Below are positions 8,535 to 32,197 of a stretch of DNA of 36,090 nt, piece after piece. The DNA comes from Bacillota bacterium (lineage in GTDB: Bacteria; Chloroflexota; Dormibacteria; Dormibacterales; Dormibacteraceae), in contig JAJPKS010000206.1 in the NCBI GenBank assembly GCA_021323605.1, positions 1-36,090 on the forward strand, read 5' to 3'. Within the stretch, counting starts at the first letter, position 1. Every line of letters begins with the position of its first letter. Position numbers and translations under genes: made by a program. A model generated the notes under the pieces. It did no database searches and was not told the DNA's origin. It was given only the letters and a program-made list of their open reading frames with translations.

Positions 8535-10046
8535 GTGACGCGCGGTACCGTCGTCTGCTCCCAGCCCGCGGCGGCCGACGCCGGGGTCTCCACGTTGCGC
8601 GCCGGTGGGAATGCCTTCGATGCCGCGGTCGCCGCCGCGCTGGTGCAGGCGGTCGTGGACCCCCTCAACTGCGGCATCGGCGGCTTCGGGGTGGCGCAGC
8701 TGCGCGAGGCGGGCTCGAGCCTCCCTGTCCACCTTGGCTTCCACGCCCGGGCGCCGCTGCTCGCTCGCCCGGACATGTTCGAGGTCACCGGCGAGATGTC
8801 GCTCGCGCCGCTCGCCGCCGGCACCTGGCCGGTCCGCGACGACCTCAACCAGATCGGGTACCTTTCGGTCGGCGTCCCGGGCACGGTGGCCGGCCTGGCC
8901 GAGATCGCCCGCTGTTACTGCCGGCTGGGCTGGACAGAGCTGAGCGCCCCGGCCATCCTGGCCTGCCGCGAGGGCTGGACCGTCACCGCCGAGCAGCACG
9001 CGGAGTGGACCCGGGAGGGACCGGCGAGCCGCATCGATGCCCGGACGCGGCTCGCCTGGACGGCCTACGGGGCCTCGGTATACACGAACGGCGGTGCGAT
9101 CCGGCGGCCCGGGGAGCGAGTGGTGAACCCGGACCACGCGAGAACGCTCGCACGGCTGGCGGAGGCCGGCCCCGAGGACTTCTACCAGGGTGAGATCGCA
9201 AGGGCAATCGCCGAGGATTTCGAGCGGAACGGCGGCCTGATCCGGGCCGCCGACCTGGAGGGTTTCACGGTCGACCGCGCGCCGGCCCTGGAGGCGAGCT
9301 ACCGGGGGCTCCGGCTCACGACCGTGCCCGCCCCCGCCGGAGGGTCGGTCCTGCTCGAGATCCTCGAGCGACTCGAGCCGCACGACCTCCGCGCGGTGGG
9401 GCACAACAGCGCGGCGTACCTCCGCCTGCTGGCCGGGGCCTTCCGGCCCGCCTTCGAGGGGATGCGGGACCGGCTGGGTGACCCCGGCGCACCGGAGGAG
9501 ACGACCCACCTGGTCACCTGGGACGAGGCCGGCAATGCGGTGGTCCTGACCCACACGCTGGGTGCCGCCTCCGGGGTGATCACGCCCGGCCTCGGTTTCA
9601 TCTTCAACGGGGCGCTCCACCGCTTCGCCCCCATGCCCGGACACCCGAACTCGATCGGGCCCGGCAAGCGGCGGGTGACCGGGATGTCGCCGACCATCGT
9701 CTGGCGCGGCTCCGAGCCGGCGATCCTGGTCGGGGGGGCCGGCGGCAACAGCATCGTCGCCGGGATCGCGCAGGTGATCTTGAACCTGGTCGAGTTCGAG
9801 ATGGACCCGCTGGCGGCGGTCTCGGCGCCGCGGATCCACTGCGAAGGGCCGGTGATCACCCTCGAGGGCCGCTTTCCCGCCTCGGTCGCCGCCGAACTGG
9901 CGGAGGCCGGTGAGCAGGTCGTGGTCTCGGCCGCCGGCTTCGACCGTCTGGTCGCCGCCAGCGTGAACGCGCTCGCCACGCCGGCATGGCCGCGGCCGGG
10001 ACCCGGGCCCGACCCGCGCTCGGCCGGCGTGGCCTTCAGCGCGTAG
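8535..10046 (+). CDS. Gamma-glutamyltransferase family protein
   Basis: N-terminal-nucleophile hydrolase of 503 residues related to gamma-glutamyltranspeptidase, which self-cleaves into two subunits before a conserved Thr. The N-terminal family segment (LRAGGNAFDAAVAAALVQAV) and the cleavage site are visible: T323-T324-H325 in EETTHLVTWDEAGNAVV, with T323 expected to become the nucleophile. GGAGGNSIV near residue 405 matches the oxyanion region. The GTG start is the first possible one, because an in-frame TAG lies 12 bases upstream. No signal peptide is seen, unlike secreted GGTs, so a cytoplasmic amidase role (for example on gamma-glutamylated or cyclic-amide catabolites) is possible. The end overlaps the convergent HIT gene by 11 bases. 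Confidence 0.87.
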   Translation: MTRGTVVCSQPAAADAGVSTLRAGGNAFDAAVAAALVQAVVDPLNCGIGGFGVAQLREAGSSLPVHLGFHARAPLLARPDMFEVTGEMSLAPLAAGTWPVRDDLNQIGYLSVGVPGTVAGLAEIARCYCRLGWTELSAPAILACREGWTVTAEQHAEWTREGPASRIDARTRLAWTAYGASVYTNGGAIRRPGERVVNPDHARTLARLAEAGPEDFYQGEIARAIAEDFERNGGLIRAADLEGFTVDRAPALEASYRGLRLTTVPAPAGGSVLLEILERLEPHDLRAVGHNSAAYLRLLAGAFRPAFEGMRDRLGDPGAPEETTHLVTWDEAGNAVVLTHTLGAASGVITPGLGFIFNGALHRFAPMPGHPNSIGPGKRRVTGMSPTIVWRGSEPAILVGGAGGNSIVAGIAQVILNLVEFEMDPLAAVSAPRIHCEGPVITLEGRFPASVAAELAEAGEQVVVSAAGFDRLVAASVNALATPAWPRPGPGPDPRSAGVAFSA

Positions 10047-10470
10047 GGGCCGCGGCCAGCCGGCGGCGGATCCGCTCGCCCACCTCGCGATAGGCGGCCG
10101 GGTCCACGTACTCCTTCGCATAGACGTGCAGCCTGGAGGAGCGGTGCTCGGGTGGCACCTGAGCGCCGCGCGGGATCAGCACCAGGTGGACGTGTGGGAA
10201 GTTCTCCCCGAAGAGGACCAGGTAGACACGTTCCGCCCCGGTCTCGGCCTCGATGGCGGCAGCGGCCTTGGCCAGCGCCGGCCCCATGGATTCCAGCTCC
10301 GCCCGTGTCATCGAGGAGAGGCTGGAGGCGTGACGACGTAGGTAGGCGACCGTCCAGCCAGGCACCTCGGTGGTGAGGTGGGGGCCGATCGACCAGTGCT
10401 CGTCCTGCCAGTACCAGCCCCCCTCCGGCGGGTTCAACTGCAGCTCGCAGACCTTGCAGTCAGGCGCCAA
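10036..10470 (-). CDS. HIT family protein with altered His triad
   Basis: Protein of 144 residues with the histidine-triad nucleotide-binding fold, a family of nucleotide hydrolases and transferases. The signature reads FPHVHLVLIPR. The first two histidines are present but the third triad position is Val. A CxxC pair (CKVC) near the N terminus resembles the zinc site of some HIT proteins. The TTG start lies inside the end of the SDR gene (11-base overlap), so it is coupled to it. The 3' end overlaps the convergent gamma-glutamyltransferase gene. Alternative starts are not evident. Confidence 0.78.
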   Translation of the reverse strand: MAPDCKVCELQLNPPEGGWYWQDEHWSIGPHLTTEVPGWTVAYLRRHASSLSSMTRAELESMGPALAKAAAAIEAETGAERVYLVLFGENFPHVHLVLIPRGAQVPPEHRSSRLHVYAKEYVDPAAYREVGERIRRRLAAAPTR

Positions 10471-11188
10471 TGGTGATCACCTCCCCGGTCACGGCGGACG
10501 AGCGCGGCCCGAGTAGGAACGCGATCACCTCCGCGACCTCCTCTGCGCGGACGAGGCGGCCGAGCCGGTAGCCGGCGATGATCCGCTCCCGCTCGGCCTC
10601 GGGAACGTCATCGATCATCTCGGTGGCGGTGAGGATGGGGGCGACAGCGTTGGCCCGGACCCCCCTCCGGGTCAGCTCCCGTCCCAGGTACCGGACCAGG
10701 GTGACCACGCCACCTTTGGCGGCGGCATAGCCGGGGCCCATGCTGCCGCCGGTGATACCGGCGATCGAGGAGACACAGACGATGCTGCCGCCGCCCTTGG
10801 CCAGCATGCCGGGCACCACCGCCTTCGCGCAGAGGAAGGGACCGGTGAGGTCCACGCCGATCACCTCTTCCCATTCCTCCAACGTCTGCTCGACCAGGGT
10901 GTGGCGGCGGTTGAGCCCCGCGTTGGCGACCAGCCCCCTCACGGTTCCCAGCTCGGCGGCGATGGTCTCCACCATCCGGAAGACCTGCTCGGGGCGGCTG
11001 ACGTCGGCCTGGTAGCAGGCGGCGCGGACGCCCTTCCTGCGGATCACTTCCGCGACCCGCTCGGCCGCTTCCCGCTCGGTCCGGTAGTTGATGGCGATGT
11101 CCCAGCCGTCGTCGGCCAGCCGGATCGCGGTGGCGGCTCCGATCCCGCGGCTGCCGCCGGTGACGAGCGCGGTCCCGAGGCCACTCAC
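10460..11188 (-). CDS. SDR family oxidoreductase
   Basis: Classical short-chain dehydrogenase/reductase of 242 residues, likely NAD(P)-dependent, FabG-like. The cofactor motif TGGSRGIG is at the N terminus, NAG follows near residue 85, and the catalytic Ser (CVSSIAG) and YAAAK motif are intact. I chose the GTG at 11188, which overlaps the stop of the upstream gene by four bases (GTGA). A longer frame to 11398 adds only a low-complexity leader. It is the second gene of a three-gene minus-strand unit with the UGSC-associated protein and the HIT protein. The substrate is unknown. Confidence 0.88.
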   Translation of the reverse strand: MSGLGTALVTGGSRGIGAATAIRLADDGWDIAINYRTEREAAERVAEVIRRKGVRAACYQADVSRPEQVFRMVETIAAELGTVRGLVANAGLNRRHTLVEQTLEEWEEVIGVDLTGPFLCAKAVVPGMLAKGGGSIVCVSSIAGITGGSMGPGYAAAKGGVVTLVRYLGRELTRRGVRANAVAPILTATEMIDDVPEAERERIIAGYRLGRLVRAEEVAEVIAFLLGPRSSAVTGEVITIGA

Positions 11189-12189
11189 AGTCCGACCGTG
11201 ACGGGGACCGATCCCCCGCTCCAGTTGGGCACGAAGGTCTGCTTGATCCCCACGCCGCCCGCGACGAGCACGTGGACGTCCTCCGGCCTCACCGCCACCG
11301 CCAGCTCGCGGTCGCCCTGCCGCCAGCGAGCGCGTCGGTGCAGCTCGCGCTTGACGTCGGCCTTGGAGAACCCGGCACCGGAGAGGCTCGCCGCCCACTC
11401 CGGGCTCATCAGGACGAAGGGGTGGCCGCCGCCCGCCAGGCGGCGGTCGAGCGTGTAGAGGGCGGCGGGCACCGCCATCGCCTCGGCCATGGTCTGGAGC
11501 AGGTCGCCGGGCTCCGAGGACTCGCCGTTGAAGACCTCGAGCACTCCCGAGATCCCGACTACGGTGACCGTGCTCTCATGGGGCGCGAAGCCACGCTCGA
11601 CCGAGTAGGGCTCCCAGGGGCTCTGCGCCTCGTTCTCGGCGAAGCAGAAGCCGTACTTGGCGGGCTGTCCCATGGTCGCCATGTCCCCGAGGCCCTCGCG
11701 GGCGCCGCCCAGCGCCCGGCAGACGAGCGAGAGCGCGCGGCCGGTGACGGCGTTGGAGCGGTTGCCGGGGCCGAGGCAGTTGCTGTCGCCCCGGTAGCCG
11801 TACGCACGGGCGGCGGGCCCGTTGACCACGACCATCAGGGCGGCGTTGCCGGTGGTGGTGAGCACGCCGAGGGCGTTCAGCTCGGGGGCCGCGAGGGCGC
11901 GGACCGCGGCCAGCACCACCGGCAGCTGGCGCGCGTCGCAGCCGGCCAGGGCGGCCGCCACGGCGACGGCCTCCACGGTGGCCGCGCCGCGGAGGGGCGG
12001 GATGAGCGCTAGCGGCTCCTTCGTCCCGGGCGCCGCGGCGAGCAGCTCGCGCAGCCGGCGCGAGGAGGGCGGGGCGAGGGGCAGGCCGTCCCAGAGCCCG
12101 CGGGCCTCGAGCTCGGACTCCAGCTCGGCCGCCGGCATGGTCTCCCAGCGGGCGACGTCGGCGACGCTCAGGATCGCGTTCTCCTGCAT
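11185..12189 (-). CDS. Free-standing UGSC-associated domain protein
   Basis: Protein of 334 residues clearly homologous to the C-terminal two thirds of the selenoprotein at 19603-21204. Shared blocks include LWDGLPLAPP / WGDGLPVLPP, LGPGNRSNAVTGRA / YGPGNRMNATIGRA, and PAKYGFCFAENEAQSPWEPY / PAKYTYCFAENLEESPWGPY. It has no selenocysteine and no N-terminal UGSC module. I know no biochemical function for this domain. The gene begins with ATG at 12189 and heads a unit with the SDR and HIT genes. Tandem operator-like sites lie 30-67 bases upstream, of the type found at the selenoprotein operon, which suggests co-regulation with its fused paralog. Confidence 0.82.
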   Translation of the reverse strand: MQENAILSVADVARWETMPAAELESELEARGLWDGLPLAPPSSRRLRELLAAAPGTKEPLALIPPLRGAATVEAVAVAAALAGCDARQLPVVLAAVRALAAPELNALGVLTTTGNAALMVVVNGPAARAYGYRGDSNCLGPGNRSNAVTGRALSLVCRALGGAREGLGDMATMGQPAKYGFCFAENEAQSPWEPYSVERGFAPHESTVTVVGISGVLEVFNGESSEPGDLLQTMAEAMAVPAALYTLDRRLAGGGHPFVLMSPEWAASLSGAGFSKADVKRELHRRARWRQGDRELAVAVRPEDVHVLVAGGVGIKQTFVPNWSGGSVPVTVGL

Positions 12190-12218: not shown

Positions 12219-12256
12219 GTGTGCGTATTGCGATCTCTTGTGCGTATAGCGACCAC
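12219..12256. promoter_or_regulatory. Tandem 19-bp operator-like pair near the free-standing UGSC-associated gene
   Basis: Two adjacent 19-mers: GTGTGCGTATTGCGATCTC (12219-12237), then TTGTGCGTATAGCGACCAC (12238-12256). Both have the TGTGCG half-site and the CG start of the second half at the same spacing as the sites at the other cluster promoters. A further CGCACAT half-site at 12193-12199 falls in the same 19-bp register. No clear -35/-10 pair is placed as at the other sites. Confidence 0.6.
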
Positions 12257-12552: not shown

Positions 12553-12590
12553 TTGCGCGAAGAGCGACCGTTTGTGCGCAATGCGCCCAC
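12553..12590 (+). promoter_or_regulatory. Tandem 19-bp operators, UbiD operon
   Basis: TTGCGCGAAGAGCGACCGT (12553-12571), then TTGTGCGCAATGCGCCCAC (12572-12590). Left half-sites match TTGTRCG well and right halves are looser. The sites lie between the -10 box and the ribosome site, the position expected for a repressor. Confidence 0.68.
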
Positions 12591-12607
12591 AGACCGAGGA
12601 GGTCGGA

Positions 12608-14047
12608 TTGCCAGAGACTGCCACGGTTGGGGAGGAGCCTGCTCCGGAGCGCGCCCCCAGGTCGCTCCGGACCTACCTCGACCACATCCGTGACCGGCCC
12701 GAGGAGCTGATCACCATCGGCCGGCTCGCCAACCCGCTCGGTTTCGAGGTCACCGCGGTGCTGGAGCACCTCGACCGCCAGGGGCGCTTTCCGGCCGTTC
12801 TCTTCGAGAACGTCCTCGACATCCACGGCGAGAAGTCGCGCTTTCCGATCCTGACCAACCTCTGGGCGACCAGGGAGCGCTGCGCCGAGATGCTGGGCCT
12901 GCCGCGGAGCCAGTCCGGCCGGGAGCTGGGCGTCCGCTTCTCCGAACTGGTGGGACGGGAGGTGGCGCCGGTCACGGTCGCTCGCGGCGACGCCCCGGTG
13001 CAGGCCAATGTGCTCGAGGGCGGACGGGCGGACATGCACCGGCTCCCGGGCGTCCGTCACTTTGAGATGGACCTGGGGCCCGTCTTCACCATGGCCCACG
13101 TCATGCACGCCCCGGGTGCCGACTTCTACAACATCACCTTCGTCAAGACCTTCCCGGAGACCGGGCGCCAGGGCGGCCTCACCATCCACACGCCACACCT
13201 GAGCCGGATGCTTCGCGAGTGGGAGCGGCGTGGCGAGCGGATCCCGGTCGTGAACGTCCTCGGCCACCACCCCGCCTTCTGGCTCGGCTCGCTCGCTCTC
13301 ACGCCCTACGGTACCAACGAGTACGCGACCGTGGGTGCCTTCCTTCGCGAGCCGCTTCGGCTCGTCCCTTCGGTCACCTGGGGAAGCGAGTTCCTGGTCC
13401 CGGCGGACGCGGAGATCGTGATCGAAGGGGAGCTCATCCCCAACCAGCGCACGATCGTGGACCCCTTCGGCGAGATCACCCGGCTCTACCAGGCCCAGGA
13501 GCTGGCGCCGGTGATGGAGGTGAAGGCGATCACCTATCGAGATGGGGCGATCATGCAGGACGTCTTCAGCGGTCACCGGGAGCACTTCCTCCTGGGACTC
13601 ATCCCCCGCGAGGGATCGGTGTACAACCACCTCCAGCGGACTCTTGGCAACGTCACTGCGGTCCACCTGCCCAGCTCGGGCAACGGACGCTCGGTCTGCT
13701 ACATCTCGATCAAGAAGACCAGTGAGAGTCAGCCCAAGCAGACCGCGATGCAGGCGCTCGCGCACGCGCCCACCTTCCAGGCCGTGGTGGTGGTGGACGA
13801 CGACATCGACGTCTTCAACGAGGAGGACGTGCTCTGGGCCGTCAACACCTACGTGGACCCGGCCCGGGACATCGACCTGATCAAGAACCTCGGCCGCTGG
13901 AGCGAGCGCCAGATGGGCAACAACCGCATCCTGATCGACGCCACGCGCCCGACCCACACGGCGTTCCCGACCCGGCTCCGCGTCCCGTCTGAGGCGATGG
14001 CGGCCGTGAAGCTCGAGGAGTGGCTCGATCCGATCGGAGGGAGGTGA
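12608..14047 (+). CDS. UbiD family decarboxylase
   Basis: Prenylated-FMN-dependent (de)carboxylase of about 479 residues, a family acting on aromatic, heteroaromatic and unsaturated carboxylic acids. Visible signatures are DAEIVIEG (269-274 holds EIVIEG) and DPFGE (ending at E289), the acidic active-site region, and a central segment with NVLGHHPAFWLG. A longer frame to 12437 would place the start upstream of the promoter. GAGGAGGT at 12596-12603 sits five bases before TTG 12608, which I take as the start; ATG 12581 is in frame but lies inside the operator. The binding-protein gene follows almost directly. Maturation needs a UbiX-type prenyltransferase, which is not in the window. The substrate is unknown; a (hetero)aromatic acid is likely. 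Confidence 0.9.
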   Translation: MPETATVGEEPAPERAPRSLRTYLDHIRDRPEELITIGRLANPLGFEVTAVLEHLDRQGRFPAVLFENVLDIHGEKSRFPILTNLWATRERCAEMLGLPRSQSGRELGVRFSELVGREVAPVTVARGDAPVQANVLEGGRADMHRLPGVRHFEMDLGPVFTMAHVMHAPGADFYNITFVKTFPETGRQGGLTIHTPHLSRMLREWERRGERIPVVNVLGHHPAFWLGSLALTPYGTNEYATVGAFLREPLRLVPSVTWGSEFLVPADAEIVIEGELIPNQRTIVDPFGEITRLYQAQELAPVMEVKAITYRDGAIMQDVFSGHREHFLLGLIPREGSVYNHLQRTLGNVTAVHLPSSGNGRSVCYISIKKTSESQPKQTAMQALAHAPTFQAVVVVDDDIDVFNEEDVLWAVNTYVDPARDIDLIKNLGRWSERQMGNNRILIDATRPTHTAFPTRLRVPSEAMAAVKLEEWLDPIGGR

Positions 14048-18738: not shown

Positions 18739-18776
18739 TGGTGCGTATTTCGCGCACTTGTACGTATAGCGCACAA
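18739..18776 (+). promoter_or_regulatory. Tandem 19-bp operators, selenoprotein operon
   Basis: TGGTGCGTATTTCGCGCAC (18739-18757), then TTGTACGTATAGCGCACAA (18758-18776). The second is nearly a perfect inverted repeat (TTGTACG-N5-CGCACAA). Placement between the -10 box and the first gene suggests repression. Confidence 0.75.
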
Positions 18777-18792: not shown

Positions 18793-19041
18793 TTGAGGAT
18801 CACGCGAGAGGCCGTTGGCCAGGTTCTGGAACCGCTCGCCGAGGGCTTCCGGGCCGACGGCGCCGATCTCGCCGTGGAGGAGGCGTCCGAGGAGCAGGTG
18901 ACGGTGCGCCTCGTCGTCTCCCCGGCGACCTGCCACGAGTGCATCATGCCGGCCGAGGCCATCACCCGCGTCCTCGAGAGCGCGGTGAGGGAGAAGTTCC
19001 CCGAGCTCGAGCGCTTCCTCTTCGTCGACAGTCGCCAATGA
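18793..19041 (+). CDS. Small Nfu-like (NifU C-terminal domain-like) protein
   Basis: Protein of 82 residues resembling the C-terminal Fe-S scaffold domain of NifU/NfuA. It has the FRADGADL block, a VTVRLVV strand, then a CxxC pair (TCHEC) followed by MPAEAITRVLESAVREKFPE, which matches the order in Nfu proteins. GGAGG at 18781-18785 lies seven bases before the TTG start. It is the first gene of the long operon and is followed, after 49 bases, by the 2Fe-2S subunit of a molybdenum hydroxylase. I infer that it helps load Fe-S clusters into that subunit. Another role for the CxxC, for example in redox work with the selenoprotein, is possible. Confidence 0.7.
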   Translation: MRITREAVGQVLEPLAEGFRADGADLAVEEASEEQVTVRLVVSPATCHECIMPAEAITRVLESAVREKFPELERFLFVDSRQ

Positions 19042-19090
19042 CACCGACCGGTCCGGCTCGCGCTCGCGGGCCACGCTGGCGAGGTTGGAA

Positions 19091-19606
19091 ATGGAACAGC
19101 CCGTGACCACAGCTCCGCGGCCCCGGACCATCCACTTCACCGTCAACGGGGTCCCACAGACGGCGATCGTCGAGCCGCGGCGCTCGTTGCTCGACTGCCT
19201 GCGCGACGACCTCCATCTGCATGGGACCCATGTCGGCTGCGAGCACGGCGTCTGTGGCGCCTGCAACGTGCTGGTGGATGGCGAGGTAGTCCGCTCCTGC
19301 TTGATGCTCGCCGTTCAAGCCGATGGCTGCGAGATCCGGACCGTGGAGGGGCTGGAGGCCGGCGGGGCCCTGAGCCCGATGCAGGAAGCCTTCTGTCGCT
19401 ACCACGCCCTCCAGTGCGGCTACTGTACGCCGGGGATACTGATCACGCTCGAGGGGCTACTCCGGGAGAACCCGCAACCGAGCGACGAAGAGCTGATCGA
19501 CGCCCTTTCCGGAAACCTCTGCCGGTGCACCGGCTACCAGCAGATCCTCGAAGCCGCAAGGGCGGTGATCCGAGGCGAGACGGCTTCCAGGGAGGTTCCC
19601 GTATGA
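19091..19606 (+). CDS. Molybdenum hydroxylase 2Fe-2S small subunit
   Basis: Small subunit of 171 residues of a xanthine dehydrogenase-family enzyme. The plant-ferredoxin-type cluster ligands are in VGCEHGVCGACNVLVDG plus the later RSC, and the second helical cluster ligands are QCGYCTPG and LCRCTGY. GAGG is six bases before the ATG at 19091; a TTG six bases earlier is also in frame. The stop overlaps the selenoprotein start (ATGA). The FAD subunit is seven genes downstream at 25769, and large subunits lie only at the two ends of the window, so the three-subunit enzyme is split over separate units. Confidence 0.95.
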   Translation: MEQPVTTAPRPRTIHFTVNGVPQTAIVEPRRSLLDCLRDDLHLHGTHVGCEHGVCGACNVLVDGEVVRSCLMLAVQADGCEIRTVEGLEAGGALSPMQEAFCRYHALQCGYCTPGILITLEGLLRENPQPSDEELIDALSGNLCRCTGYQQILEAARAVIRGETASREVPV

Positions 19607-21204
19607 CCACCACGATCGAGATCCTCAATCCCACCTTCGCCCGCGTCTCCGGACAGGAGCTGCGCAAGGCCCCCTTCCCTCGCCTCGAGGAGGGTACGAA
19701 GGTCCGCATCGGTTTCCTCAACAACCAGAAGCCGAACACACAGGAGCTGCTTGCCCTGGTGGAGTCGGGGTTGCGGGAGCACTACCAGGTTGAGTCGCGG
19801 ACCTTCTTCAAAGGCGATGCCGCCCATCCCGCGCCGCCGGAGGTGATCGAGGAGCTCAGCCGGTTCGCCGATGTGGCGGTGCTGGCGACGGCCGATTGAG
19901 GGTCGTGCACGTCGTGGAGTCTCCACGACTCGGTCGAGCTCCTGAAGCTCGGAACCCCGGTGGTCACGGTGGCCACGGCGGCCTTCATGCCGCTCGCCCA
20001 GATCGAATCGAAGGCCTGGGGCTGGCAGGTACCGATCGCCAGGATCGAGCACCCGTTGGGCGGCGTCCCCACCGACCGCCTCGGGTCACGGGCACGTGAG
20101 GTGGTCGAGTATTTCGTCTCCCAGGCTCGAGGCCAGGAGGGTGGCAGGGCCGGCGGTACCGCTCACGCCGTCGGCGAGCCGGTGCTCTCGGTCCCCTCCG
20201 ATCCCTGGGCGTTCTTCGACTTCATCCAGTCGAAGGGGTGGGGCGACGGCCTCCCCGTTCTTCCGCCCACGCCCGACCGGGTCGAGCGGATGCTCCGCTC
20301 GGCAGGCGTGCCCGCGGATGCCTTCGTCGGCTTCATCCCGCCCGAGAAGCTGCACTGCACGGCCCGGGACGTGGCCGCCAACTGCGTCCTCGCGGGCCTG
20401 CCCGATGCCGCCTTCCCGGTCGTCCTGGCGGCGATCAGGGCGGGGCTCCAGGAACGATTCAACTTGCTCGGGGTGCTGGCCACCACGAATCCCTGCGCGA
20501 CGACCGTGCTGGTCAGCGGACCGATCGCGAAGGAACTCGGGATGAACGCGGGCGCCAGCGTCTACGGACCCGGCAACCGTATGAACGCGACCATCGGTCG
20601 CGCTGTCCGGCTGGCCCTCCAGAACCTGGGCGGTGCCTGGCCTGGCCCAGTGGACAAGAGCACGCAGGGGAGCCCGGCCAAGTACACCTACTGCTTCGCC
20701 GAGAACCTGGAGGAGAGCCCCTGGGGGCCGTACCACGTGGACCGGGGCTTCAAGGAATCGGATTCGACGGTGACCATGATCGCACCCGAAGGTCCGCACA
20801 ACATGCACGATCCGGCGAGCACGAGCGGTGACAACTTTTTGCAGTACGTGATCGGCAGCATGACCCACTGTGGCCACAACAACCTCTACCATCGTGGCGA
20901 CACCTTTCTGGTGCTCTGCCCCGAGCACGCGACCATGCTGGCCCGTGACGGCTACGATCGTGCGCGAATCCGGCAAGAGATCTTCGCGCGGGCGCGAGTT
21001 CCCGCTCGGGCGATGGGCCGGGAGGCGTTCGAACACTTCACCTCGCATTGGCCGCGGAAGGAGAAGATCGACTTCGAGACCGGGACGCTCTCGATCGTTG
21101 ACGCCCCGGAGGAGATCAACGTGGTGGTCGCCGGCGGCCCTGGCAAGCACTCCAGCTGGCTGCCGACGTTCGGCCTCACCTACTCGACGATCGAGAAGCT
21201 GTGA
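19603..21204 (+). CDS. UGSC family selenoprotein with fused C-terminal domain (TGA read as selenocysteine)
   Basis: One reading frame of 533 residues interrupted only by TGA at 19897-19899, codon 99. The codons after it encode Gly-Ser-Cys-Thr-Ser, so the peptide reads ADUGSCTSW, the UGSC motif of a known bacterial (seleno)protein family. The protein before it (ILNPT start, KVRIGFLNNQKPN, FADVAVLATAD) and after it (LHDSVELLKLGTPVVTVAT, HPLGG) matches one continuous UGSC domain of about 175 residues, so the TGA is not a real end. U99 and C102 would form a UxxC redox pair. Residues about 203-533 are a second domain, also found alone at 11185-12189. ATG overlaps the stop of the 2Fe-2S gene, and the end overlaps the crotonase start. 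Selenocysteine machinery (selA-D) is not in the window. The function of the family is not established. Confidence 0.9.
19911..19929 (+). promoter_or_regulatory. Candidate bacterial SECIS hairpin
   Basis: Directly after the in-frame TGA, GTCGTGG (19911-19917) and CCACGAC (19923-19929) form a perfect 7-bp stem with the loop AGTCT. The loop begins 18 bases after the TGA and has G as its second base. Both fit the published pattern for bacterial SECIS elements, and the loop resembles AGGUCU of E. coli fdhF. Confidence 0.7.
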
Positions 21205-21974
21205 GTATCGACTTCGAACTCGAAGATGGCATCGCGACGGTGACCATCAACCGGCCCGAGCGGCTGAACGCGATGGACACCGAACACTACCGTCTGCTCT
21301 CCGAGGCCTGGAAACGGGTCCGCGACGACCCCGAGGTGCGGGTCGCCATCGTGACCGGCGCGGGGGACCGCTCCTTCACGGTCGGGGCCGACCTGAAGAC
21401 GCACGTGGGGGCCGAGGTCGAGCTGGCCGAGCACTGGCTCACCCAGAAGGACCAGATCCTGAACCGCGGGCTCGAGGTCTGGAAGCCGGTCGTGGCGGCC
21501 GTCAACGGCTACTGCCTGGGTGGCGGAATGACCCTCCTCTTCGCCACCGACATCCGCGTCGCGGCCGCCCACGCGACCTTCGGGCTCCCCGAGGTGAAGC
21601 GCGGAATCGTGCCCGGCAACGGCGGCACCCAGCGGGTGCTCGACCAGCTGCCCTGGGCGATCGGCATGGAGCTGCTCCTGACCGGCGACCCCATCGACGC
21701 CGAGACCGCCGCCCGCTGGGGGTTGATCAACGAGGTGGTCTCTGCCGATCGCCTGATGGAGGTCGCCCGAGACTACGCACGGCGGATCGCCGCCAACGCA
21801 CCCCTCGCCGTGCAGGCGGCGAAGGAGCTGGCCGTTCGCGCCCGCGACACCGACATCAACACCGGCCTCCGGATGGAGCAGTCGATGAACCGGCTGCTCT
21901 CCACCAGCCAGGACGTGAGGGAGGGCACCTCGGCCTTCGCCGAGAAGCGGCCGGCGAGGTTCGCCGGACGATGA
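21201..21974 (+). CDS. Enoyl-CoA hydratase/isomerase (crotonase) family protein
   Basis: Crotonase-fold protein of 257 residues acting on acyl-CoA thioesters. The oxyanion-hole regions (FTVGADLK and NGYCLGGG) are present. Of the two catalytic glutamates of classical hydratases, the second is kept (E131 in GLPEVKRGI), but the first is Thr (T111 in GGGMTLLF), so simple water addition may not be the reaction; isomerase, hydrolase or lyase activity is possible. GTG overlaps the selenoprotein stop by four bases (GTGA). It lies between the selenoprotein and the thiolase-like gene in the operon, consistent with processing of a CoA ester made by the CoA-transferase. Confidence 0.9.
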   Translation: MSIDFELEDGIATVTINRPERLNAMDTEHYRLLSEAWKRVRDDPEVRVAIVTGAGDRSFTVGADLKTHVGAEVELAEHWLTQKDQILNRGLEVWKPVVAAVNGYCLGGGMTLLFATDIRVAAAHATFGLPEVKRGIVPGNGGTQRVLDQLPWAIGMELLLTGDPIDAETAARWGLINEVVSADRLMEVARDYARRIAANAPLAVQAAKELAVRARDTDINTGLRMEQSMNRLLSTSQDVREGTSAFAEKRPARFAGR

Positions 21975-23107
21975 GCCACCCGTTGCGCGGCAAGTACGTG
22001 ATCGCCGGGATCGGCAAGACGCGGTTCGGACGGCTCCCGGACCGCTCCACCATCTCCATGAACGTCGAGGCCTGCCGCGAGGCGCTGGCCGACGCCGGGG
22101 TGGAGAAGGAGGCGGTGGACGCCCTCTTCGTCAAGTACCCGACCTCGAGGTTCGAGTCGATGTACGGGCAGAAGCTGGCCGAGGCCATGGGCATCCAGCC
22201 CAGGGTCGGCGGCGTCTGGGACCAGGCCGGTGCCTCCAACATCAGCCAGATCGCCTTCGCCTGCATGTCGATCGAGGCCGGGCTCTGCGAGGTGGCGCTG
22301 GTCACCTTCGCCGACAACCCGAAGTCGGGGACCAGGGAGGCCTACTCTCGCCCGCGCGGCGACGACGCCCCCTACGGCTGGTTCGGTGTGCCCGCGACCT
22401 ACGCCATGATCGCCCGCCGGCACATGGAGGAGTTCGGGACCACGAGTCGCCAGCTGGGCGAGATCGCGGTTGTCTGTCGCGCCAACGGCGCCCGCAACCC
22501 CGATGCCCAGCTCCGGAAGGCGATCACGCTGGACGACCATCAGGCCTCCCCCTGGATCGTGGAGCCGCTCCACCGTGACGACTGCTGCCTCGTCTCCGAC
22601 GGGGGCGCGGCGGTGGTGGTGATGAGCGCCGAGCGGGCGCGGCAGCTGGGCGTCAGGGCGCCGGTGCCCATCCTCGGCTTCGGCCAGGGCCAGACCTCCT
22701 GGGAGGTCGCTCAGCGGCCGACCCTCACCGAGACCTGCGCCAGGGAATCGGCGGCCGTGGCCTTCCGGATGGCCGGCATCCAGCCCGGGGACGTGGATGT
22801 CTGCGAACTCTACGACTGCTTCACCATCGTCGTCCTCATGACGCTGGAGGACTACGGCTTCTGTAAGAAAGGGGAGGGCGGACACTTCGTCGAGGGGGGC
22901 AGGATCGCGCTGGACGGGTCGCTACCTATCAACACCAGCGGCGGCCTGCTCTCGGAGACGGGGATGCCCGGCATGCAACACGTCCTGGAGGGCGTGCGTC
23001 AGGTGCGCGGCACCTCGGTGAACCAGGTCAAGAACGCCGGGGTGGTGGTGGTCTCGAACCAGGGAGGCACGATGCACACGCACTCCACGCTGGTGCTGGG
23101 CGGGTGA
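21971..23107 (+). CDS. Thiolase-like protein lacking the catalytic Cys
   Basis: Thiolase-superfamily protein of 378 residues, of the SCP2/DUF35-associated type. The usual active Cys segment (A-C-A-S) reads AGASNIS here, with Gly in place of Cys. The C-terminal GHP motif is not seen either; the region reads NTSGGLLSETGMPGMQH. The core ends with SNQGGTMHTHS. Such thiolase-like proteins pair with DUF35 proteins, and some (the Ltp2 type in steroid breakdown) are retro-aldolases and not thiolases. The next gene is exactly a DUF35 protein, overlapping by four bases. I therefore expect a C-C lyase or aldolase on a CoA substrate, but this is inference. ATG overlaps the crotonase stop (ATGA). Confidence 0.88.
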   Translation: MSHPLRGKYVIAGIGKTRFGRLPDRSTISMNVEACREALADAGVEKEAVDALFVKYPTSRFESMYGQKLAEAMGIQPRVGGVWDQAGASNISQIAFACMSIEAGLCEVALVTFADNPKSGTREAYSRPRGDDAPYGWFGVPATYAMIARRHMEEFGTTSRQLGEIAVVCRANGARNPDAQLRKAITLDDHQASPWIVEPLHRDDCCLVSDGGAAVVVMSAERARQLGVRAPVPILGFGQGQTSWEVAQRPTLTETCARESAAVAFRMAGIQPGDVDVCELYDCFTIVVLMTLEDYGFCKKGEGGHFVEGGRIALDGSLPINTSGGLLSETGMPGMQHVLEGVRQVRGTSVNQVKNAGVVVVSNQGGTMHTHSTLVLGG

Positions 23108-28866: not shown

Positions 28867-29620
28867 TCTCCGCCGCCGCCTGGCGGAGCGGACGGAGGTA
28901 GTCCCTGACGACGGTCGCCGGCTCGATCCGCGGGTCGTAGAGACCGAGGCAGATGCTGCCCGCGATCTTGCCCGAGCGATAGCGGAGCGGCAGCGCCAGG
29001 GCCCGGACTCCGAGGTCGATCTCCTGGTCGAGCAGTGAATAGCCGAGCTCGCGGACCTGCTTGATCCGCGTCTTGATCGTTGCCGTCTCGGTCGCGGTGA
29101 AGGGTGTGTAAGCGACGGTCTCGGCCCGCTCCAGGTGGGCGTCCAGCTCGGCGTCGCTCATCTCGGCCAGGATCGCCCTTCCCATCGCCGTGGAGTGCGC
29201 CGGCAGCCGGCTACCGACGCCGAGGCGGGTGTGCAGGTAGCCGCGCGGTAGCGCCCGATAGAGGAAAACGATGTCGGTGCCGTCGAGCACGCCCAGGCTC
29301 GAGGAGACGTGCAGCGTCTTCGCCAGTCGGTCGCAGTGCGGACGGACGATCTGCGGCAGTTCCTGACTGGAGAGGTAGGCGTAGCCGAGCCGGAGCACGG
29401 CCGGCAGGAGCCGGTACCGTCCCGCTTCATCGCGGACGACGTAGCCCAACCGTTCCAGGGTGACCAGAAAGCGGCGACAGGCCGCCCGCGAAAGACGCGT
29501 CCGCTCGGCGACCCTGGCGATGCTCAGGGCGGGTTGCTGGTCGGTGAAGGCCTGGATCACGGCAAGCCCCCGCCCAAGCGACTGGACGAAATCGCGGTCG
29601 GGCGGCACCCGGGCGGTCAT
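28835..29620 (-). CDS. IclR family transcriptional regulator 2
   Basis: Regulator of 261 residues: N-terminal winged helix-turn-helix (ARVAERTRLSRAACRRFLVT) and C-terminal effector domain (about 90-255). RDFVQSLGRGLAVIQAF matches regulator 1 and the PcaR/PobR-like branch. ATG overlaps the stop of the racemase-like gene, so it is the third gene of the unit driven from the operator-bearing promoter at 31269-31297. It sits between two operons that carry the same operators, so it is the best candidate for the protein that binds them and controls itself. The effector is probably the pathway substrate or an intermediate. Confidence 0.92.
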   Translation of the reverse strand: MTARVPPDRDFVQSLGRGLAVIQAFTDQQPALSIARVAERTRLSRAACRRFLVTLERLGYVVRDEAGRYRLLPAVLRLGYAYLSSQELPQIVRPHCDRLAKTLHVSSSLGVLDGTDIVFLYRALPRGYLHTRLGVGSRLPAHSTAMGRAILAEMSDAELDAHLERAETVAYTPFTATETATIKTRIKQVRELGYSLLDQEIDLGVRALALPLRYRSGKIAGSICLGLYDPRIEPATVVRDYLRPLRQAAAEINSTLALLPS

Positions 29621-30429
29621 TTTGGCGCCTGGCCGAATTCCTGGAGGCGGTAGAAACGGTCCAGCTCGGCCAGCCTGCCGGCGGGAGGCTTCGTCGTGTG
29701 GTAAGAGGTTCGGGCGGGGAACTGCTGACTCCGCTGGTGGAGCGTCGCCATCAACTCACCGTACTTGAGCGTCGCACCCAGGGTGTCCACGATCGGGATC
29801 TCGTCCACACGGGTGAGCCCGTTCCTGGCCAGGACCGCGGCCACCGGCGCCTCACCCGGGATGATCACGTCCACGCCCTGCTTCGCCAGCTCGCGCGCTT
29901 TCTGGCGGACGTGCTCGAGCACCGGCTCGGGGTCCTCGAAGCCCTTCAGGACGATTTCGAAGGGAAGCCCGAGAGGGGTCACCCCCCACGCCCTGGAGGA
30001 CATCCCGTGTTGCTCGATGTGGGACTCGTAGAGCGGTACCAGCTCCTCGATCATCGCCAGCACGGCAAAGCGACGGCCGAGCAGGGTCGCGACCTGCATC
30101 GAGGCCTGGCCGTAGCCGATCACCGGGATGTCGACCAGCGTCCGGGCGACCTCGAGCGCCGGCTCGGGCAGCGTCATGAGCAGGAAGCCGTCGTAGCCCT
30201 CGGCCTCGGCCCGGCGGACGTGGTTCAGGACCTGGAGCGAGTGCAGGGTCTGGATGTAGACGTAGCGGAGGTCCACGCCCGGATAGAGCGTCACGTAGGT
30301 CCTGGGCGCCATCCCGTGGAGATCGACGACGGTGTCGGGCTCCGCCACCTTCCGGAAGTGGGCGGCCATGGCCTCTCGGTAGGCCGGCAGTCGATCCAAC
30401 TCGGTCAGGCTGAAGTGGTAGAACCTCAA
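29617..30429 (-). CDS. Asp/Glu racemase superfamily protein lacking both catalytic Cys (copy 1)
   Basis: Protein of 270 residues in the aspartate/glutamate/hydantoin racemase and maleate isomerase superfamily. The fold is supported by [44 protein letters not shown] and [17 protein letters not shown]. The first catalytic Cys position carries Thr (LLMTLPEP), and the second carries Glu (PGEAPV), so the usual two-thiol proton transfer is not possible. TTG start overlaps the ATPase stop (TTGA). It is strongly similar to the protein at 31391-32197. Isomerase, lyase or decarboxylase activity by a different mechanism, or a binding role, are options. Confidence 0.85.
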
Positions 30430-31230: not shown

Positions 31231-31268
31231 TTATCCGCATTGCGCACATTGGTTCGGCATACGCACAT
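31231..31268 (-). promoter_or_regulatory. Tandem 19-bp operators of the ABC ATPase/racemase/IclR unit
   Basis: Read on the minus strand: ATGTGCGTATGCCGAACCA (31268-31250), then ATGTGCGCAATGCGGATAA (31249-31231). Left halves are conserved, right halves loose. The pair fills the leader between the -10 box and the ATG at 31229. Confidence 0.65.
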
Positions 31269-31319: not shown

Positions 31320-31356
31320 TGTGCGTAAATCGCCCAATTGTACGCATAGCGTACAA
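31319..31356 (+). promoter_or_regulatory. Tandem 19-bp operators of the racemase/binding protein/hydroxylase unit
   Basis: TTGTGCGTAAATCGCCCAA (31319-31337), then TTGTACGCATAGCGTACAA (31338-31356). The second is a perfect inverted repeat TTGTACG-N5-CGTACAA and is the best copy of the motif in the window. Confidence 0.8.
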
Positions 31357-31390: not shown

Positions 31391-32197
31391 ATGCGACTCT
31401 GGCACCAGAGCCGCACCGAGCTGGACCGGCTGCCGGCCTACCGAGAGGCCATGGCCGCCCACTTCCGGAAGGTGGCGGAGCCGGGGACCACCATCGACCT
31501 GCACGGACTGGCCCCCGGCACCTACGTGACCGAGTATCCGGGCCACGACACCCGCTACCTCTACTTCTCCTACCTGCACTCGCTCCAGGTCCTGAACCAC
31601 GTCCGCCGGGCCGAGGCCGAGGGCTACGACGGCTTCCTGCTCATGAACCTCCCCGAGACCGTGCACGAGGAAGCTCAGACGCTGGTCGACATCCCGGTCG
31701 TGGCCTACGGCCAGGCGGCCATGTACGCGGCGGCGATGCTGGGCCGGCGCTTCGCGATCGTGGCCATGATCAAAGAGCTGCTGCCGCTCTACGAGTCGCA
31801 CGTCGCCCGCTACGGGATGACCTCGAAAGCCGGGGCGGTGAGATGGCTCGGCCTCGACCACAGCGGCGTTTTCGCCGGCTTCGAGGATCCGGGGCCGGTG
31901 ATCGACGCCATGGAGGCGCGAGCGAAGGAGCTGGCCTCCGAGGGCGTGGACGTGATCATCCCGGGTGAGGCGCCGGTGGCCACGGTCCTGGCCAGGGTGG
32001 GCGTCTCCCGGCTGGCCGGGGTCACGATCGTGGACGCCCTCGGCGTCACCGTGAAGTTCGGAGAGGCCATGGTGAAGCTGGCCGCGGTCTCGGGGCAGCG
32101 GCCGGCGCGGGGCGGCTACTACACCGACCGGCCGCCGACGGGCCGGCTGCAGGAGCTGGAGCGTTTCTACCGGCTGGGGGAGTTCGGGGAGGGCTGA
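31391..32197 (+). CDS. Asp/Glu racemase superfamily protein lacking both catalytic Cys (copy 2)
   Basis: Protein of 268 residues, paralog of the protein at 29617-30429; long blocks such as [20 protein letters not shown] and [20 protein letters not shown] are identical in both. The first catalytic Cys position is Asn (LLMNLPET) and the second is Glu (PGEAPV), so it too lacks the family's usual proton-transfer thiols. An in-frame stop at 31370-31372 leaves ATG 31391 as the only start. It is the first gene of the unit with the barrel protein, binding protein and hydroxylase. The keeping of both copies on divergent co-regulated units suggests that they form a heteromer or act on related substrates. 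Confidence 0.85.

Follow-up and report, generated by a model that had tools for sequence, protein, structure and literature searches.

A companion domain of UGSC selenoproteins, fused and free in one gene cluster, and its possible role in a GrdB/PrdB-like enzyme

The UGSC family is counted with the more abundant selenoproteins of marine metagenomes, and its function is recorded as unknown in papers from 2008 and 2026 (PMC2398784, PMC13188914). In the first of these, Zhang and Gladyshev reported a fusion of UGSC to a domain called 'Unknown_1' (Fig. S1A), which was also seen alone in a few aquatic organisms (PMC2398784). The definition of the family (PF24696, NF041046) covers the UGSC module only. 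UGSC selenoproteins in which UAG encodes selenocysteine (Sec) have been described in Geodermatophilaceae (PMC5330540). The other point of reference is GrdB/PrdB (PF07355), the selenoprotein subunit of the reductases for glycine, sarcosine, betaine and D-proline, the Sec domain of which is compared with UGSC below.

A fused and a free copy of the domain under a shared operator

The window analyzed here, by which we mean the whole stretch of 36,090 nucleotides, encodes a selenoprotein whose N-terminal part matches PF24696 (E=1.8e-35, 123 bits against a cut-off of 25), so that the described family corresponds to the N-terminal domain of the fused protein. The C-terminal part, hereafter CTD, has no Pfam or NCBIfam match and is thus a companion without a family; it is probably the 'Unknown_1' of PMC2398784. 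The start codon at position 19603 forms an ATGA overlap with the preceding gene, and the frame contains one in-frame UGA, at 19897. The genome carries selB (C13:612-2426, 352 bits) and the UGA can therefore be read as Sec, but the presence of selB is unspecific because most relatives also have it. An 8-bp SECIS-like hairpin lies 3′ of the UGA, with a stability no greater than that of shuffled sequences (z=−0.7). Altogether the genome holds seven UGSC matches, and a second fused UGSC–CTD gene is present outside the window.

Table. Features of the locus (positions in the window; strand as + or −, a dot where none applies)
Feature	Position	Strand	Basis or remark
Third gene of the free-CTD operon, 144 aa, without Pfam match	10036..10470	−	
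SDR oxidoreductase, same operon, overlaps free-CTD stop	10460..11188	−	PF13561; stop/start overlap
Free CTD protein (CTD2), 334 aa	11185..12189	−	tblastn to fused CTD, AF2 model, CTD clade
Tandem operator upstream of free CTD gene	12220..12251	.	31 bp upstream
Same operator at start of UbiD-like gene	12554..12585	.	
UbiD-family decarboxylase, divergent from free CTD gene, exact start unsure	12581..14047	+	PF01977, PF20695, PF20696
Same operator, before the operon of the fused gene	18740..18771	.	21 bp upstream
Small NifU-like CxxC protein, heads the selenoprotein operon	18793..19041	+	PF01106
[2Fe-2S] small subunit of molybdenum hydroxylase, overlaps selenoprotein start	19085..19606	+	PF01799, PF00111
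UGSC–CTD fusion selenoprotein, 533 aa	19603..21204	+	PF24696 in N-terminal part; AF2 of whole chain
UGSC domain, predicted flavodoxin-like fold, GrdB/PrdB Sec-domain homologue	19612..20136	+	
In-frame UGA read as Sec, UGSC motif	19897..19899	+	reading frame; selB in genome
CTD of the selenoprotein (CTD1)	20194..21201	+	
Enoyl-CoA hydratase family, overlaps selenoprotein stop	21201..21974	+	PF00378
Thiolase/lipid-transfer-type protein	21971..23107	+	PF22691, PF00108 on overlapping longer ORF 20870-23107
Further operator copy	31236..31267	.	2 mismatches
Further operator copy, upstream of Asp/Glu-racemase-family gene	31320..31351	.	2 mismatches

The free CTD gene is an uninterrupted open frame. 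When its product was compared with the window by tblastn, one other place was matched, 20224-21171 (+) inside the selenoprotein, with 35% identity (111/321 residues, E=2e-52). The preliminary description, made from the letters alone, had aligned the free protein with residues about 203-533 of the selenoprotein and had stated that it lacks the UGSC module. Both statements hold: the match covers residues about 208-523 of 533, and no UGSC (PF24696) segment was found in 11185-12189. The free protein gave no credible Pfam match with the E threshold raised to 10, and belongs to no NCBIfam family.

AF2 models were obtained for the complete UGSC–CTD chain (pLDDT 94.6, pTM 0.93) and for the free CTD (pLDDT 94.1). 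Foldseek matches of the UGSC part include the flavodoxin-like WrbA/PnpB, and no thioredoxin is among the matches listed; the modelled domain is thus predicted to be flavodoxin-like, whereas a Trx-like fold was expected in PMC2398784. For the free CTD model, Foldseek against the PDB returned nothing below E=0.001, the top matches, which are weak, being Toblerone-fold cyclic amide hydrolases (E at least 0.014, TM about 0.2, rmsd about 12). A sequence search of the PDB, by phmmer and with profiles of CTD and UGSC–CTD, likewise gave nothing credible.

The operator is a tandem repeat with the half-site GTGCGTATNGCG and a 19-bp period, for which shuffling predicts 0 matches. That both genes lie near the same type of operator, as first noted from the sequence, was confirmed, the distances being 31 bp for the free gene and 21 bp for the operon of the fused gene. 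Outside the window the 4.35-Mb genome contains a single match, C326:5826, which lies shortly upstream of the second fused UGSC–CTD gene; a UbiD gene directly follows that gene. Two IclR regulators are encoded in the window, and one of them may bind the tandem operator. Asp/Glu-racemase-family genes (29617-30429 and 31391-32197) lie near the operator copies at 31236 and 31320. A catabolic pathway is suggested by the neighbouring genes of the window, which encode UbiD, molybdenum hydroxylase subunits, a CoA transferase, an enoyl-CoA hydratase, a thiolase, an FAA hydrolase and an NMT1/ABC transporter.

Association of CTD with UGSC, and a second CTD clade

We surveyed 400 genomes of the phylum, chosen independently of any CTD/UGSC neighbourhood, with no more than 5 to 8 candidates being scored per genome. 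CTD was found in 42 genomes and UGSC in 42; one genome had CTD only, one UGSC only, and 357 had neither (Fisher p=1e-53, not corrected for relatedness). With the window's own genome left out, 70 of the 84 CTDs in this sample lay less than 300 bp from a same-strand UGSC gene. Among 101 genomes of nearer relatives, the identical nine carried CTD and UGSC, and UGSC was absent from all 14 control genomes. A second collection, assembled by CTD similarity from bacterial and archaeal loci of plasmid, genome-contig and window origin, comprised 133 CTD copies. In 105 of these the domain was either fused to UGSC (26) or encoded on the same strand within 250 bp of it (79), and six copies had no UGSC within the stretch covered. 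In plasmids of Halorientalis, Halalkalicoccus, Roseovarius, Natrinema and Arthrobacter, the gene adjoining CTD is annotated as 'UGSC family (seleno)protein'.

The preliminary description had suggested a functional partnership with UGSC proteins in place of a random fusion, and had made this depend on the domain being enriched in the neighbourhood of UGSC genes. The enrichment is strong, 41 of 42 CTD genomes also carrying UGSC, and the co-occurrence, fusion and adjacency counts therefore support a functional partnership. CTD is a near-obligate companion of UGSC. Since the two modules are nearly always found together in bacteria and archaea, they probably form a two-part selenium enzyme.

Several loci in these collections deserve separate mention. 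A betaproteobacterial metagenome-assembled genome (MAG; G103, the genome of L027) holds 25 UGSC matches, many of them in frames of fused size. On an Acidovorax plasmid (L016:5671-7878), the CTD frame continues into transposase-like sequence; this CTD gene is unannotated and the UGSC gene of the plasmid is split at the UGA. Three MAG records with UGSC/CTD genes are titled Bordetella parapertussis (L033, L034, L084), a species name that is probably wrong; they group with freshwater betaproteobacterial MAGs.

In trees of 133 and 58 CTDs, the free CTD fell into a separate clade (98 SH-aLRT; 100/98 in the careful tree), which we call CTD2. The clade has 11 members from several phyla, none of which has a directly adjoining UGSC of its own. 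The fused CTD of the window grouped with that of the second fused gene of the genome (support 100/100) and with the UGSC-adjacent CTD of Geodermatophilaceae (98/86). CTD1 and CTD2 occur in one gene cluster in Geodermatophilus (L045), Blastococcus (L048), L025, L086 and a genome of the window's own family (G012). Because the two clades are drawn from the same organisms, the two are inherited as a pair. In L025 and L086 CTD2 comes directly after UGSC–CTD1, and in L045 and L048, where UGSC and CTD form a pair, the first CTD to follow that pair on its strand is CTD2. Haloarchaea have CTD–UGSC–CTD trios, with two CTDs per UGSC, that arose independently. Two further loci (L075:5867-10060 and L076:1923-6116) carry a row of four CTD genes in tandem, and a single UGSC gene follows about 2.6 kb downstream. 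At four betaproteobacterial loci CTD2 has no neighbouring UGSC, though 4 to 25 UGSC matches occur elsewhere in the respective genomes.

A shared active site of the fused and free domains, envisaged in the preliminary description, was checked as residue conservation only, and at that level the expectation stood. The near-invariant CTD residues, including D34, G35, P37, G83, G124, N146, G150, R151 and E185, are kept in CTD2, and the strictest of them (D34, G35, N146, R151 and E185) are present in all ten CTD2 members examined.

Relationship to GrdB/PrdB and candidate electron donors

We built a profile from 101 UGSC domains and compared it with the Sec domain of GRDB-family proteins, translated across the UGA. 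hhalign gave a probability of 95.8% (E=7.7e-9, score 60.0), with Sec aligned on Sec and with both the U-G-x-C/S motif and a downstream HP-G motif matched. Ten shuffled or reversed controls scored at most 16.3 and unrelated families at most 28.2. Judged by this profile alignment, UGSC and the GrdB/PrdB Sec domain are homologous. The one exception among the control families, a likeness of UGSC to a TrxR cluster (96.7%), was traced to two real TrxR–UGSC fusion members within that cluster. In GrdB-like loci (L135-L144), the PF07355 matches stop immediately before the Sec codon and leave the Sec domain outside; the link between UGSC and GrdB may be easily missed because of this. The window's own genome has no PF07355 match despite its seven UGSC matches.

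The resemblance does not extend to the rest of the reductases. UGSC–CTD lacks the N-terminal half of GRDB, and CTD was rejected both as a relative of that half (hhalign 0.5%) and as a relative of GrdE/PrdA (PF09338; 0.2% to the GrdE-family alignment), so that the GrdB analogy rests on the Sec half. UGSC also differs from GrdB/PrdB in occurring in Cys forms, in Mycobacterium and haloarchaea.

A thioredoxin-type electron supply would be a further feature in common with GrdB/PrdB; for UGSC–CTD it is suggested by domain fusions and gene neighbours. In Blastococcus (L048:6466-7920), a Pyr_redox_2 domain with a CAGC motif and UGSC lie on one chain, with UAG as the Sec codon, and Geodermatophilus (L045:6511-7950) has the same TrxR-like plus UGSC layout and Sec codon. 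Both genes belong to the UGSC family described in Geodermatophilaceae, although neither the TrxR fusion nor the CTD and CTD2 neighbours are mentioned in the accessible portion of that report (PMC5330540). In another genome (G008), CTD is preceded on one chain by a domain that resembles thioredoxin and has CPTC and VPT motifs; the match is modest (best PDB entry a thioredoxin, E=8.5e-4; Pfam below cut-off), and G064 has a similar domain with a CPVC motif. Moreover, trxB or trxB–trxA adjoin UGSC/CTD genes in Roseovarius, Variovorax and Arthrobacter.

A NifU-like CxxC protein is a possible third component. The PF01106 match of the copy in the window scores 25.5 bits, just below the 27-bit cut-off, and in Arthrobacter such a domain is fused to UGSC. 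Proteins of this kind adjoin or are fused to UGSC at 18793-19041 of the window and at L019:6982-7797, L176:8702-8974 and L031:1479-1805.

A proposed enzyme and its alternatives

Our preferred reading, to which we assign a probability of roughly 0.55, is that UGSC and CTD each make up one half of a GrdB/PrdB-like Sec enzyme fed by thioredoxin, in which CTD binds the substrate and CTD2 is a second subunit. The redox centre would be UGSC, with Sec (or Cys) at the start of a helix in the flavodoxin-like domain and a resolving Cys downstream of it (U-x-x-C). CTD, with its invariant Asp, Asn, Arg and Glu, would bind the substrate, probably a carboxylate or an intermediate linked to CoA from the catabolic pathway encoded nearby. 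By analogy with glycine and proline reductase, the carbon bearing a leaving group would be attacked by Sec, and the group would depart; Sec would then be released as a Se–S bond with the resolving Cys, and this bond would be reduced by thioredoxin reductase and thioredoxin with NADPH. CTD2 shares its inheritance with UGSC–CTD1, would be switched on with it, and is most likely a second CTD subunit of the same complex, with about two CTDs per UGSC. The partnership, the common operator, the separate CTD2 clade, the UGSC–GrdB/PrdB homology and the fusions of TrxR to UGSC and of the thioredoxin-like domain to CTD are what the data show; the reductive chemistry, the assignment of substrate binding and the mixed CTD1/CTD2 complex are what we infer.

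It is rather unlikely, though the most probable of the alternatives, that CTD2 acts as a separate enzyme in an adjacent step of the pathway, co-regulated with UGSC–CTD1 but outside that complex, and borrows UGSC in trans or does not need it. Its separate operon with an SDR oxidoreductase and the 144-aa protein, the four CTD2 genes of betaproteobacteria that have no UGSC beside them and the retention of the invariant residues would all suit such an enzyme. The placement of CTD2 directly behind UGSC–CTD1 in L025 and L086 and as the next same-strand CTD in L045/L048, together with the independent origin of multi-CTD sets in haloarchaea, speaks against it.

Less probable still is that UGSC–CTD is a thiol/selenol transferase or isomerase and reduces no metabolite, Sec being only a nucleophile and thioredoxin merely keeping the enzyme reduced. 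The fused UGSC–CTD proteins of Vibrio europaeus (L011:5380-7065) and Sporomusa termitida (L014:5317-7041) have MGTS in place of UGSC; this branch has neither Sec nor Cys, so that an obligatory redox role is ill-suited there, and many neighbours of the family are CoA transferases, lyases and decarboxylases, not redox enzymes. The conserved resolving Cys of UxxC, the TrxR–UGSC fusion and the fusion of a thioredoxin-like domain to CTD are harder to accommodate in this way. Both MGTS genes adjoin aconitase X and DUF126 genes.

That the free CTD is a functionless, decaying duplicate of the fused domain, as its mere 35% identity to the fused copy might suggest, is very improbable, since the split is not recent (an 11-member clade across phyla, 100/98), the strictest residues are kept in 10/10 members and the gene has its own operator; we regard it as an old dedicated paralogue.

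Beyond the enzyme proposed for this locus, we tentatively suggest, at somewhat less than even odds, that UGSC–CTD is widespread and represents a third branch among the selenoenzymes of the glycine/proline-reductase type, present also in aerobes and haloarchaea. In this branch a substrate subunit of unseen fold would replace the pyruvoyl proprotein, electrons would come from thioredoxin, and the enzyme would have multiplied, in some genomes up to 25-fold, for different substrates, with two different CTD subunits in the window. The genomic association, the second clade, the regulon and the GrdB link are not reported in the accessible portion of PMC2398784. A search of the open-access literature found neither the near-obligate CTD partnership, the CTD2 clade and the shared operator nor the UGSC–GrdB/PrdB homology and the fusions of TrxR to UGSC and of the thioredoxin-like domain to CTD.

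With these results, UGSC gains a near-obligate partner, a regulon, a candidate electron donor and a homology to a characterized selenoenzyme. An 'unknown redox protein' becomes an enzyme that can be tested and whose set of subunits is defined, and the results indicate constructs for expression, namely UGSC–CTD plus CTD2 or the natural TrxR–UGSC fusion.
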